43,150 nt of DNA from Defluviicoccus sp. (GTDB lineage Bacteria > Pseudomonadota > Alphaproteobacteria > MPNO01), in NCBI GenBank assembly GCA_022823775.1, contig JAJEHI010000090.1, positions 1 to 43,150 on the forward strand. Direction: 5' to 3'. Both the position numbers and the translations under genes were made by a program. The notes beneath the pieces are model-generated. The model did no database searches. It was not told the origin of the DNA and saw only the letters and a program-made list of their open reading frames with translations. This document shows positions 514-5,002 of the stretch, in pieces. Each line of letters begins with the position of its first letter. The stretch's first letter is position 1.

Positions 514-1575
514 TTATTTTACGGCATGCAAATTAAACCTCTCGCGTGCTCTATTTGAACGGCTTAGACCAACAATCCCTTCAAGCTCGTCTAGAGGGAT
601 GTTCAGTGCCTCAGCTACGTCGGATTTCGTTGTTTTCTCACTCCAAAGCTGCGAAAAAATCTTCCTCCAAACCACTGACTCTTCTCTCTCTATTCCTCCC
701 GGTTCCCCGGACCGAAATCCCCGCTTCCCAAGCTCAATGCAAATTGACTTGTATTGCCAATCCGTAAGCATCTCCAAGGCATGAAGCCTATATGCTAGTG
801 CCATAGCTGAGACCCGCCAACGCAACTTCAATTCCAATATGACATCAATGGATATTTTGCTAGGCACTCGAGAACGAACGTCGTTTCGCGGCATTAGAAA
901 AGCTGACGCAAAGGAATCGGCCTCACGCTCTGCTGGTCGGGAAGGTATTGGTCCAGCATGTTTATGTAGGACCAAATGCCCGAGTTCATGTGCCGCGTCA
1001 TATATGCTGCGCTCTGCCGTCTTGAAATGGTTTAGGAAAACATATGGTTTATCGTTCTTCCAGAATGAGAACGCATCTACAGTTGCCGTATCCTCTGACA
1101 GTGCGAAAACACGAACGCCGTGGGCTTCCAAGAGCCTGACGATGCTTCTTATCGGCCTCTCACCTAATGCCCAATGTTGCCTCAAATGCTGTGCGGCGGC
1201 TTCTGTATCGGTTTCATAGCTCAGATCAAGTAGCTTAACTATCGGAAGACTAAACCGTTCTTCGATCCAACCATTTAACTCTATACCCAAGGATCCAGCG
1301 GTGATTGCAGCGTCACGCTCCCTCGCTGTCATCTTTGTCAAACTGCGAAAGCTGACCGAATTTATGTTTATAGGTTCGGGGTCATCACGAAGGAAGAATT
1401 CAATGGGATAATTGAGAGCATCGGCTAAACGACGAATTGTAGATTCTTCTGGCTGGTTCTCCCCTTTCTCTAGCCTTGTGATCGTGACCGCTGAGACCTT
1501 AGCGTATTCAGCAAGACGCTTAGCCGTAAGCTTCCGTCGCTTACGAGCAAGGACGAGCCTTCTACAATTAAACAT
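514..1575 (-). CDS. XRE-family regulator fused to ImmA/IrrE metallopeptidase
   Basis: 353 aa. Residues about 5-62 form a Cro/C1-type helix-turn-helix (LTAKRLAEYAKVSAVTITRL). The middle carries a zinc-peptidase motif HELGH at 196-200 with a probable third ligand Glu218 in EREADSFASAFLMP, the signature of the ImmA/IrrE (COG2856) family. Family members cleave repressors or antitoxins, in several known cases in response to DNA damage or phage. The gene starts 6 bases after the stop of the unknown gene at 1582-2226, so the two are almost certainly one operon. The DNA is visibly AT-richer than the housekeeping genes and uses codons that are rare elsewhere in the window, which suggests horizontal acquisition. 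Target of the peptidase is unknown. Confidence 0.9.
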   Translation of the reverse strand: MFNCRRLVLARKRRKLTAKRLAEYAKVSAVTITRLEKGENQPEESTIRRLADALNYPIEFFLRDDPEPININSVSFRSLTKMTARERDAAITAGSLGIELNGWIEERFSLPIVKLLDLSYETDTEAAAQHLRQHWALGERPIRSIVRLLEAHGVRVFALSEDTATVDAFSFWKNDKPYVFLNHFKTAERSIYDAAHELGHLVLHKHAGPIPSRPAEREADSFASAFLMPRNDVRSRVPSKISIDVILELKLRWRVSAMALAYRLHALEMLTDWQYKSICIELGKRGFRSGEPGGIEREESVVWRKIFSQLWSEKTTKSDVAEALNIPLDELEGIVGLSRSNRARERFNLHAVK

Positions 1576-1581
1576 AAGCGA

Positions 1582-2226
1582 CTACTTGCGAATAACCAAC
1601 GGATCAAAATCGTTGACAAAGTCTCTATCGCTTATAGAGAACTCTTCGGGGTCAGCACTCTTTCCATCCAAAAGGTATATTCTCTCAATATAGGCGCTGA
1701 AAGTATCTCCGGAAATTACAGGGGACGTAAGTTCGGCCGCGCCTTCCTCATCTACCATTAGGTAGTAAGTCGTCCATTCGCCATTCTGGCGCGGTGCATA
1801 TCTAGGGAGGTCACCAAATAAATTACCGCTACAAGCGCGTTCGGAGCCAGCCCCTTTGGGTGAGCGTGGCTTAGGCATCTGATCGTCGTCGCACGCGATG
1901 TCTACATTAGCGAATGCCACCTTTACCCTAAGTTTATCGTTTCGGATCGCTTCAACTGACTCTTCGCGATGAACGGACCATTTCTTGCCGACGAGCTGAT
2001 CACGTAGAGACCAAACACCATTCTGGTATCTAAGTGTGCCCTCAGCGTTGGCTGGATGATAAGGCGTGGCATCCGCCCCGGCAGAAATGGCAACGTTAAC
2101 CACGTTCAAGAGAGCATCACGTCGCAATTCAAGCTCAGCCAAGCGACGGTCAACGTCCCAAGGCTCTTTCCAGACCTGTGTTGCGATCATATTCATCAGA
2201 ATACCCATGTTAATGTTTCTGACCAT
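1582..2226 (-). CDS. Uncharacterised protein paired with XRE-ImmA
   Basis: 214 aa from the first ATG; I do not recognise a family. Soluble, no signal peptide or membrane segment. The N-terminal third is helical (DRRLAELELRRDALLNVVNVAISAG), the rest looks beta-rich, ending in an acidic tail. It is the first gene of a two-gene operon with the ImmA/IrrE regulator. The start is uncertain: the ATG at 2226 directly abuts a candidate -10 element, so translation would be leaderless or would begin at one of the in-frame ATGs at 2208, 2196 or 2190; none has a clear Shine-Dalgarno sequence. By position it could be the partner (toxin, sensor or substrate) of the metallopeptidase, which is inference only. 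AT-rich like its neighbour. Confidence 0.75.
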   Translation of the reverse strand: MVRNINMGILMNMIATQVWKEPWDVDRRLAELELRRDALLNVVNVAISAGADATPYHPANAEGTLRYQNGVWSLRDQLVGKKWSVHREESVEAIRNDKLRVKVAFANVDIACDDDQMPKPRSPKGAGSERACSGNLFGDLPRYAPRQNGEWTTYYLMVDEEGAAELTSPVISGDTFSAYIERIYLLDGKSADPEEFSISDRDFVNDFDPLVIRK

Positions 2227-2313: not shown

Positions 2314-3048
2314 TCACGGCACCCTCCCCCGATACACCGCCCCCTCCGGTATCCCGATCAGCAGCAGCGGACACGGGTTCCCCACCCCGCGTTCGATGCG
2401 TTCGCGCAGCTTGTTCCAGTGGGTCGTGGCGCTGCCGAACTTGTCCTGGACGAACCGCCGCGCCCATTCGTCCACGAAATCCACGCCGGTGGCCCTGACC
2501 ATCCGGCGCTGGCGGGCCGTGGGGTCGAGGCCGAAGCGGGCCAGGTCGTCGAAGCCTTGCACGCCGTGATCGGCGGCGCAGGCGGCGACGATACGGACGA
2601 CGTTCGCCTGCAGGGACGCGCCGCGCGTCACGATCGCGCCGACGCTGATCGCGCCCTCGCCGTGGAGCCTCTGGAAGTTCTCGAGATCGCGGTCGAAGAA
2701 CGGATCCTTGTTGTTCCACTCGATTTCCAGGGCGATAGCGCCGTTGCCGGTTCGCCGCACATGGTCGATCTCGTGAGACATCGCGGCGCGTTCGATTTCG
2801 TCGACCGTCTTCCTGATGACGATGTTTCTCTTGACCCAACCCCGGTCGGTCAGGGCCCGGCGCAACCTTTGCGTCGAACCGGCCTCGCCTCCCCCTCCCC
2901 GCACCAGTTCGAAATCCGCGATCCTGACGGCCAACAGGGTGCGGCACAGCTCGTCCAGCGGACCCGGGAAGTCTTCCTGGAGGACGGCCCGGGCATGGTT
3001 CACCGTCCGGACGTCGAAGCCCGCCTCTTCGAGGTCGGCCAGACTCAA
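2314..3048 (-). CDS. BglII/BstYI-like type II restriction endonuclease
   Basis: 244 aa from a TTG start at 3048 chosen because its TTGA overlaps the stop of the methyltransferase, and because it gives a length close to BglII (223 aa). Reading further upstream in this frame only gives an arginine/proline-rich shadow of the methyltransferase. The core ALEIEWNNKDPFFDRDLENF (around residues 106-125) matches the catalytic strand of the BglII/BstYI family, where the known enzymes have E-V-Q-F; here Glu108 and Glu110 would be active-site residues, with acidic residues upstream (Asp95). The segment LLLIGIPEGAVY near the C-terminus resembles the end of BstYI. It would cut unmodified DNA; family members recognise GATC-centred sites, but the target here cannot be predicted safely. 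Confidence 0.75.
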   Translation of the reverse strand: MSLADLEEAGFDVRTVNHARAVLQEDFPGPLDELCRTLLAVRIADFELVRGGGGEAGSTQRLRRALTDRGWVKRNIVIRKTVDEIERAAMSHEIDHVRRTGNGAIALEIEWNNKDPFFDRDLENFQRLHGEGAISVGAIVTRGASLQANVVRIVAACAADHGVQGFDDLARFGLDPTARQRRMVRATGVDFVDEWARRFVQDKFGSATTHWNKLRERIERGVGNPCPLLLIGIPEGAVYRGRVP

Positions 3049-3956
3049 GGCGGGGCCGTCGCCGAATTGTGGCCGTAGGTCGGCCAGTCCGGCTCGTAGC
3101 CCGCCTCGGCCTGGTTGCCCCACACCGTCCAGTTGTCGCGGACCCCGCGCCCGAACAGTTCGAGATACGGCCCCCAGCTGCAGCTTTCGATCAGCTCGTA
3201 TTGCTCGTCCGGCTTGCGGGAATGCTCGCGCTTCCGGCTGGCGATCAGGTTGACCTGGCGGCGCCCGGGAGGGAGCGTGCGCGCGTTTTTCCCCCGGATG
3301 CCGAACAGCACCATCTCGGTCACGTTGCGGAAATAGAACCCGACCCCGCGCCCGTCCGAACCGCCGTCCTTGCGTATCTTGTGCCAGATCAGGTTGCTCT
3401 TGTACTCGAACCCCCACGATTCGAGCACGCGCAGGCCGTAAGGCAGAAGCGCGTTCGGAACCCAGAGATAGCAATGGGCACGCTCTTGCATATGGTCGGC
3501 GACCGGCAGGGCGGCGATTTCCTCGACCGTGAGCGTGCCGTAGCGCGAAAGGCGGCGATGCTCCGGCGCGACCTTTCCGGTCCGGTTGGCGAAGCGCCAG
3601 GGCGGATCGGCGAGGACCGTCCCGAACTTCCCGCCGTTCAGGTATTGGGCGAGATCGGCGGCGGGCGACCGCGGCGCCGGGTCTCCGGGCTCCGCCACGG
3701 CGGCCGCGACCGGCTCGGCAGCCCGGTCTCTCGCCCCCGCGACGATCGACTTGTCCACCCCGTCATGGCCGGCGAGCGCGTTAAGCTCGGCCTTGGGCAT
3801 GTTCTCGCGCCGTCCCCCGATACAGGCCCCGTGGGCCTCGACCGGCTCCGAGAATAGACGAGGCGATTCGTCGGACCAAGGCTCCCCGATTCGCTTCGGC
3901 CCGGTCCGTGCGATCCCGATCTCCCGGCGAGTCCCCGGCGCGCCATTCCGCTCCAT
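3045..3956 (-). CDS. MT-A70 family N6-adenine DNA methyltransferase
   Basis: 303 aa. The catalytic DPPW motif is at residues 117-120 (FGTVLADPPWRF), followed by family-typical stretches (YLWVPNALLPYGLRVLESWGFEYKSNLIW and the later KPDEQYELIE and ELFGRG). It should methylate adenine in the site recognised by the overlapping endonuclease, protecting host DNA. The ATG at 3956 is preferred over one at 3800 because it has a strong Shine-Dalgarno sequence, AGGGAGGT at 3963-3970. The first 105 residues are a low-conservation extension, rich in Ala, Pro and Arg. Its TGA overlaps the TTG start of the endonuclease (4-base overlap), so the pair is translationally coupled with the methylase made first. 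The promoter overlaps a candidate LexA box. Confidence 0.85.
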   Translation of the reverse strand: MERNGAPGTRREIGIARTGPKRIGEPWSDESPRLFSEPVEAHGACIGGRRENMPKAELNALAGHDGVDKSIVAGARDRAAEPVAAAVAEPGDPAPRSPAADLAQYLNGGKFGTVLADPPWRFANRTGKVAPEHRRLSRYGTLTVEEIAALPVADHMQERAHCYLWVPNALLPYGLRVLESWGFEYKSNLIWHKIRKDGGSDGRGVGFYFRNVTEMVLFGIRGKNARTLPPGRRQVNLIASRKREHSRKPDEQYELIESCSWGPYLELFGRGVRDNWTVWGNQAEAGYEPDWPTYGHNSATAPP

Positions 3957-3976
3957 GACCGAACCTCCCTGGCTGA

Positions 3977-3991
3977 GAACATAAAGGGAAC
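3977..3991. promoter_or_regulatory. Candidate LexA (SOS) box upstream of the restriction-modification operon
   Basis: GAACATAAAGGGAAC fits GAAC-N7-GAAC exactly, the direct-repeat LexA site of alphaproteobacteria (GTTC-N7-GTTC on the other strand). It overlaps the candidate -10 of the methyltransferase promoter and sits 21 bases before its start codon, the right place for repression. LexA control is inferred from the match and location. Confidence 0.6.
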
Positions 3992-4017
3992 ATATAGGTG
4001 TTGCGGCGCGCGATCAA
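3989..4017 (-). promoter_or_regulatory. Candidate promoter of the restriction-modification operon
   Basis: On the minus strand: -35 TTGATC (4012-4017), 17-base spacer, -10 TATGTT (3989-3994). Transcription would start near 3982, inside the LexA-like box, and about 25 bases before the ATG. Confidence 0.45.
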
Positions 4018-4161
4018 CTATGGGTTGCGATCTTCTTCCATAGGCTCATGGACGGCCGGACCGGACGGGACGAGCGAGATGGGCTGGGCAGCGACCGCGT
4101 TCGCGGCAACGAAGGCTGCTCCACCACGCCGCGGGCGGCTCCGGTCGATATGACGCGCCGC

Positions 4162-4282
4162 CGATGTCGTGCAATGACAAGTGGATCGTGTTGTGGCGTT
4201 ACACGTCTTTGCCGCGGCGGGCGGCGTCCATGCCGCCGAGCCCCTTCCCACGCCCCCCTGTCGTCATGCCCGGACTTGTTCC
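4162..4282 (+). repeat. Direct repeat, copy 1 (about 120 bp)
   Basis: This segment is repeated at 4624-4743 with scattered mismatches. Shared landmarks are CGATGTCGTGCAATGAC at the left, GGCGGCGTCCATGCCGCCG in the middle (itself an inverted repeat) and CCCGGACTTGTTCC at the right. No coding potential was recognised. Confidence 0.75.
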
Positions 4283-4467
4283 ACTGCTGTCCGGTTTGGA
4301 TTTTCGGGACCGTCTCAGCCCCCTCTCTTGTCACCCCGGACTTGTTCCGGGGTCCAGGCCTGCCCCGGACGCCGAGCTGTCCCGGACTCCGTTCCGGGAT
4401 CCGAGGGAAGCCGGGCGAGATCCGGCCGGATCGCGACGGTCCGTAGCGACCGACCCACCCTCCCCGG

Positions 4468-4489
4468 CCCCTCCCGCGAGCGGGAGGGG
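4468..4489. repeat. Intergenic palindrome (10-bp stem)
   Basis: CCCCTCCCGC and GCGGGAGGGG are separated by two bases, forming a strong hairpin on either strand. A related hairpin, CCCTCTCCC with GGGAGAGGG, follows at 4518-4540. There is no T-tract on either side, so these look like REP-type elements rather than intrinsic terminators. Confidence 0.6.
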
Positions 4490-4623
4490 AGAAGGCAGGG
4501 AGCCGGCGCGCGCGTCCCCCTCTCCCGCACGGGGAGAGGGCCGGGGTGAGGGGGCCTCCCGGGCGAAAAATGCTCCGGCGCGGTGCCTGACAGCCTGGAC
4601 CGGCCCGCGGGCATTCGCGCCGG

Positions 4624-4743
4624 CGATGTCGTGCAATGACACGTGAATCGTGTTGTGTCGTTACACGTTTTTGCTGCCGCGGGCGGCGTCCATGCCGCCG
4701 GCCCCCTTCTCACGCCCCCTGTCGTCCTGCCCGGACTTGTTCC
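4624..4743 (+). repeat. Direct repeat, copy 2 (about 120 bp)
   Basis: Second copy of the repeat at 4162-4282, same orientation, 462 bases downstream. Its right end runs into the left arm of the long inverted repeat at 4726-4832. Confidence 0.75.
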
Positions 4744-4832
4744 GGGCATCCGTGTCTTGCAGCATGGCGGGATGAGCGGGCGACCGGTGAGCCGGCGGAG
4801 GGACGTGGATGCCCGGAACGAGTCCGGGCAGG
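4726..4832. repeat. Long inverted repeat, 26-bp arms
   Basis: Arms at 4726-4751 and 4807-4832 are reverse complements at 25 of 26 positions, with a 55-base loop. The core, a 'gcccggacttgttccgggc' type palindrome, recurs in weaker form near 4335, near 7018 and near 295, which makes it a dispersed REP-like family in this genome. Confidence 0.7.
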
Positions 4833-4875
4833 ACGGGTCTGGTTTCCCGACGGAGCGGGACGGTGGCATGGCCGC

Positions 4876-5002
4876 CCTTCGATACGCCGCTTCGCGGCTA
4901 CTCAGGGTGAGGGAACGGCGGTGGCGATAAGGGTAACCCTCTCATCCCGAGCCCGCCCCGGACCCCTCATCCCGAGTAGGCCCGAAGGGCCGTATCGAGG
5001 GA
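4876..5002. repeat. Inverted pair of a second intergenic repeat
   Basis: 4876-4912 and 4966-5002 are approximate reverse complements sharing CGATACG...CTTCG...CTACTC...TGAG. The right copy ends 27 bases before the TRAP permease start. Structured RNA from this pair could shape the permease leader, but nothing shows that directly. Confidence 0.6.

Follow-up and report, generated by a model that had tools for sequence, protein, structure and literature searches.

A predicted LexA operator at the methylase of a BglII-family restriction–modification operon in Defluviicoccus sp. and its alphaproteobacterial relatives

We found that a candidate LexA box overlaps the predicted promoter of a type II restriction–modification (RM) operon in Defluviicoccus sp., and that the same box recurs upstream of homologous methylase genes in many other Alphaproteobacteria. 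The operon lies in a stretch of 43,150 nucleotides (contig JAJEHI010000090.1), hereafter called the window. On balance, we consider it probable that LexA represses the methylase operon and that DNA damage raises methylase, which would protect the chromosome from self-restriction.

RESULTS

The restriction–modification operon

The first gene of the operon (3045–3956, minus strand) encodes an MT-A70 DNA adenine methylase (Pfam PF05063, 1e-28, 100.9 bits; PADLOC type II MTase, 2e-87), whose conserved core, from residue ~97 (DPPW motif), is 64–89% identical in relatives. The second gene (2314–3048, minus strand) encodes a BglII/BstYI-family endonuclease (Pfam PF09195, Endonuc-BglII, 4e-25, 88.9 bits), in which the conserved PD-(D/E)XK-like residues D95, E108 and E110 are invariant in 24 homologues. 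The operon is intact in the window, and the TTG start of the endonuclease overlaps the TGA stop of the methylase, which suggests translational coupling of the two genes. With the conserved residues of the endonuclease and the linked methylase, the operon is, as judged from its sequence, a type II RM system of the BglII/BstYI family. An earlier note on this DNA had described an MT-A70/BglII-like operon with the methylase followed by a TTG-started endonuclease, and the Pfam matches and the junction sequence agree with that description. A PDB sequence search with the endonuclease returned no relative, and the PDB sequence matches of the methylase were eukaryotic-type N6-adenosine methylases, which do not inform its DNA target.

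The methylase family was thus correctly named, with one small correction. The methylase ORF has an N-terminal extension of ~95 amino acids that the fetched relatives lack in their methylases and that contains an in-frame IS1595/ISXO2-type transposase remnant (residues ~11–92; 3681–3926, minus strand; 36% identity, E 6e-10, to the transposase of locus L060; PF12762 sub-threshold, E 0.009). Owing to this extension, the conserved core starts 323 bp from the box described below. The matching L060 transposase sits directly upstream of the L060 methylase. At three loci (L055, L060 and L062), the methylase and endonuclease directly follow IS1595/ISXO2-type transposase sequence, as though carried by the element as passengers.

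Directly behind the endonuclease, on the same strand, the window contains a RosmerTA-like toxin–antitoxin pair (514–2226, minus strand; RmrT, 1582–2226; RmrA, 514–1575, with HTH and ImmA/IrrE peptidase; PADLOC matches). We rejected this pair as a part of the conserved RM system and took it as a neighbor, because its GC content is low (~0.48, compared with ~0.68 around it) and it is absent from all other fetched BglII loci. The intergenic region at 4160–5000 of the window contains repeated 'cccggacttgttccggg'-type and 'tcgtgcaatgaca...cgttacacgt' sequences.

A candidate LexA box over the promoter

The sequence GAACATAAAGGGAAC occurs exactly at 3977–3991 of the plus strand and reads GTTCCCTTTATGTTC on the gene strand, which is a candidate LexA box of the form GTTC-N7-GTTC, the type also found at lexA of this genome and at the homologous methylases. 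It overlaps the –10 element of a predicted promoter (3989–4017, minus strand) composed of a –35 TTGATC (4017–4012), a 17-bp spacer and a –10 TATGTT (3994–3989); downstream of the –10, the minus strand presents the box (3991–3977), GGGAGG (3969–3964) and the ATG (3956) in this order. Both the GAAC-N7-GAAC sequence at 3977–3991 and its position over a candidate –10 (3989–3994), as the earlier note had them, were confirmed in the exact sequence. A generic sigma-70 scan, which applied a stricter threshold, did not list this promoter.

LexA and its operator type in the host genome

The genome encodes a single LexA (one TIGR00498 match, 159.9 bits; cut-off, 110.95). Its lexA gene has an exact box, GAACTTTACTAGAAC, ~60 bp before it, a sequence that four congeners share without change, whereas recA carries GAACAAATCATGTAC, which matches at 7/8 positions and is one mismatch from the rule. 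Because lexA has an exact box and recA the 7/8 form, the LexA of this genome most likely reads the GTTC-N7-GTTC motif. The earlier note had proposed looking for the same box at both genes and had named a missing LexA or a different genomic consensus as grounds for abandoning the idea; LexA is present, the operator type at lexA is the same, and recA shows only the near match. A lexA box of this type was also found in 27/27 other genomes examined, a set picked mainly, but not solely, for the methylase box. The genome was searched by pattern matching. The bare pattern matched 71 times per strand genome-wide (20 for the reversed control), a count inflated by coding DNA, and close examination was therefore confined to an AT-rich subset of matches.

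Conservation of the box at homologous methylases

We fetched 80 loci containing BglII homologues and sought the box in the 300 bp that precede the conserved core of the methylase. An exact box was found in 26 of the 46 alphaproteobacterial loci whose methylase does not follow the endonuclease (27 with that of the window). Markov shuffles predicted 0.43, and the frequency of boxes in other parts of these loci predicted ~0.52. By contrast, none of the 18 non-alphaproteobacterial loci had a box; LexA motifs outside Alphaproteobacteria differ. These counts ignore shared ancestry, and even with ten independent lineages P would be ~2e-10. At three more loci (L049–L051), a box that matches at 7/8 positions, either GTTCTTGTTATATTC or GTTCCTGTTATATTC, stands at –95, and a Rhizobium plasmid (L190) has GAACAAATAAAGAAC 274 bp upstream of the annotated methylase start. 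When 20 convergent loci were aligned, the box was the main conserved block, the rest of the upstream DNA aligning poorly (median pairwise identity, 46%).

Approximately 40% of the alphaproteobacterial loci lacked an exact box, and none was found in the operon-type relatives L052, L055, L056, L059 and L060. In a class-wide sample drawn irrespective of the endonuclease, 3 of 17 methylase orthologues had an exact box, and several of the box-less orthologues have the methylase behind the endonuclease. MT-A70 paralogues of the same class (34–40% identity) had no box (0/12).

Within the genus, genome G004 retains the footprint of the window's box, with 29/34 nucleotides identical around the box and the Shine–Dalgarno sequence; the DNA further upstream does not align, and the methylase and endonuclease matches of G004 are broken or partial. 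Genome G002 has a different box, GAACAAACTAGGAAC, which lies on the 3΄ side of the remnant region and does not align with that of the window; this is consistent with an independently gained operator.

Pattern counts within the window were not above chance (3 matches; shuffled sequences had a mean of 1.37, and 15 of 100 reached 3), as expected if the motif were accidental and LexA did not act at the methylase operon. We nevertheless regard such an accident as very improbable, given the 26 of 46 relatives against 0.5 expected and the footprint common to the window and G004. What gives the box significance is its place in the promoter, the box of like type at this genome's lexA, and its conservation in relatives.

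The box accompanies the methylase

In convergent loci, each gene has its own promoter, and the two can therefore be compared directly. The box was present at the methylase in 20 of 29 such loci and at the endonuclease in one of 29 (p ~2e-7, relatedness ignored), and in ~10 of them it covers a –10 of the TTGxxx-17-TATTGT type. Because the box in these loci stands at the methylase and hardly ever at the endonuclease, the conserved predicted SOS target is the methylase, not the endonuclease.

This distribution bears on the possibility that LexA holds down the whole operon for the sake of restriction, in which case damage would raise the endonuclease as well, to strengthen defence or to help kill damaged cells, and making the methylase first would provide safety. 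In the window, as in a number of other operon-type loci, the endonuclease does lie directly behind the methylase with the TGA/TTG overlap, and an SOS-induced endonuclease, BapE, exists in Caulobacter (PMC12700426). However, the single endonuclease box among 29 convergent relatives and the solitary BglII homologues, which had no box (0/4), make this rather unlikely; the pattern favours SOS-coupled protection from self-restriction over damage-induced restriction. We also considered a tie between the BglII-family endonuclease and BapE but dropped it, having found nothing that links BapE to this family. LexA control of the RM system, as the earlier note had proposed, is thus well supported by the presence of LexA, the operator type and its conservation, whereas the emphasis of that note on damage-induced restriction, with gene order as the safeguard, does not match the conserved theme.

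Boxes at unrelated methylases

Two further methylases of the genome that contains the window have boxes. A PstI/BsuBI-type RM operon in G000:C158 (L191, 2868–5755, minus strand), in which an Eco57I-like methylase precedes a BsuBI/PstI endonuclease, has an AT-rich box, GTTCTATTTTTGTTC, ~80 bp upstream of the methylase. Among nine class orthologues of this methylase, L203 has GTTCACTTTTCGTTC, and L204 and L205, a pair from the same genus, share GAACGATCATGGAAC; PstI-type loci on five named plasmids (four of them alphaproteobacterial) had no exact box. A Vsr–Dcm pair, also in G000:C158 (L192, 3936–5150, plus strand), has GAACAAATAGAGAAC in the 3΄ end of vsr, 28 bp before the dcm start. Of nine homologues, two have a box at precisely this position (–43), namely L233 and L236, the second of which shares just 57% protein identity. 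Conservation at the PstI-type and Vsr-linked Dcm methylases is weaker than at MT-A70, and we treat these boxes as leads.

Other matches included GAACGAAAGAAGAAC inside vsr of a second Vsr–Dcm pair (G000:C103; L036, 1501–1515), and AT-rich LexA-type boxes upstream of an MraZ-like gene (by ~265 bp), of the gene for a DUF6338 membrane protein (by 20 bp) and of a radical SAM gene (L034, L037 and L043).

DISCUSSION

From the position of the box we infer that LexA bound to GTTCCCTTTATGTTC would cover the –10 and the promoter start and repress the methylase operon. DNA damage, including cuts made by the cell's own endonuclease at under-methylated sites, would lead RecA to trigger LexA self-cleavage, and methylase synthesis would increase. 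The extra methylase may then act on sites that repair and restarted replication leave unmodified or hemimethylated, sparing the chromosome from restriction. Such an arrangement would form a negative feedback through SOS, in which cutting induces SOS, SOS yields more methylase, and more methylase reduces cutting. In the window, where the endonuclease shares the promoter of the methylase, SOS would be expected to increase the two enzymes together, with the methylase presumably translated first, which leaves damage-induced restriction some likelihood in this operon; because only the methylase carries the box in convergent relatives, with the one exception noted above, extra modification is the likely purpose.

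The operator might instead serve establishment, if incoming single-stranded DNA or the first cuts in a new host induced SOS and the resulting burst of methylase allowed a mobile RM system to settle safely. The system is indeed mobile, being found on plasmids and a phage and beside IS1595-type transposase sequence. However, LexA already present in the new host would keep the incoming methylase repressed, and the box is kept across chromosomal loci, suggesting value in established hosts; we therefore judge this explanation to be distinctly unlikely and retain protection from self-restriction as the preferred one.

The operon resembles known BglII/BstYI-family type II systems with MT-A70 methylases (e.g. 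those of Rhizobium sp. B230/85 and Roseomonas mucosa plasmids) in both enzyme families, in their adjacency and in the existence of orientation variants, and differs from them by the predicted LexA operator on the methylase promoter. In the open-licence literature searched, where absence is no proof, we found no mention of a LexA operator on a BglII/MT-A70 methylase, and the two papers that combined LexA with MT-A70 concerned phages of other bacteria. A GTTC-N7-GTTC box over the promoter, as at lexA here, is shared with the alphaproteobacterial SOS regulon and is the exact Caulobacter LexA consensus (PMC12907096), although the target here is an RM methylase, compared with repair, mutagenesis or division in that regulon. 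The closest published case is Caulobacter ScmA/VsrA, in which a DNA methylase is likewise functionally tied to an endonuclease and SOS control of VsrA through an internal GTTC-N7-GTTC is suspected by the authors (PMC12907096); the suspected target there is a Vsr-like endonuclease, not the methylase, and the enzyme families differ.

Imbalance of RM systems and post-segregational cutting are both established inducers of SOS (PMC3874152). Two papers describe a likewise damage-linked relief from self-restriction in Escherichia coli, the alleviation of type I restriction by ClpXP degradation of HsdR (PMC4231737; PMC12707154). The route proposed here is by contrast transcriptional, acts through more modification, concerns a type II system and implies no proteolysis. 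One of these sources, a 2025 review of RM biology, refers to SOS and to restriction alleviation and does not mention LexA (PMC12707154).

Restriction alleviation in the cited papers concerns type I enzymes and operates via proteolysis or assembly; the present case bears on how type II systems keep from cutting the host chromosome during DNA damage and re-synthesis. Defluviicoccus sp. and many of its relatives probably make more of the protective methylase whenever their DNA is broken. A wider idea, which we entertain as a tentative possibility, is that Alphaproteobacteria have repeatedly put unrelated RM methylases (MT-A70/BglII, Eco57I-like/PstI and Vsr-linked Dcm) under LexA, with SOS as a general sensor of, and brake on, type II self-restriction. 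Marinovum algicola, Silicimonas algicola and Alloyangia pacifica are culturable relatives suited to testing. If true, a LexA-controlled methylase would constitute a transcriptional feedback from self-restriction to the SOS response, present across several orders.
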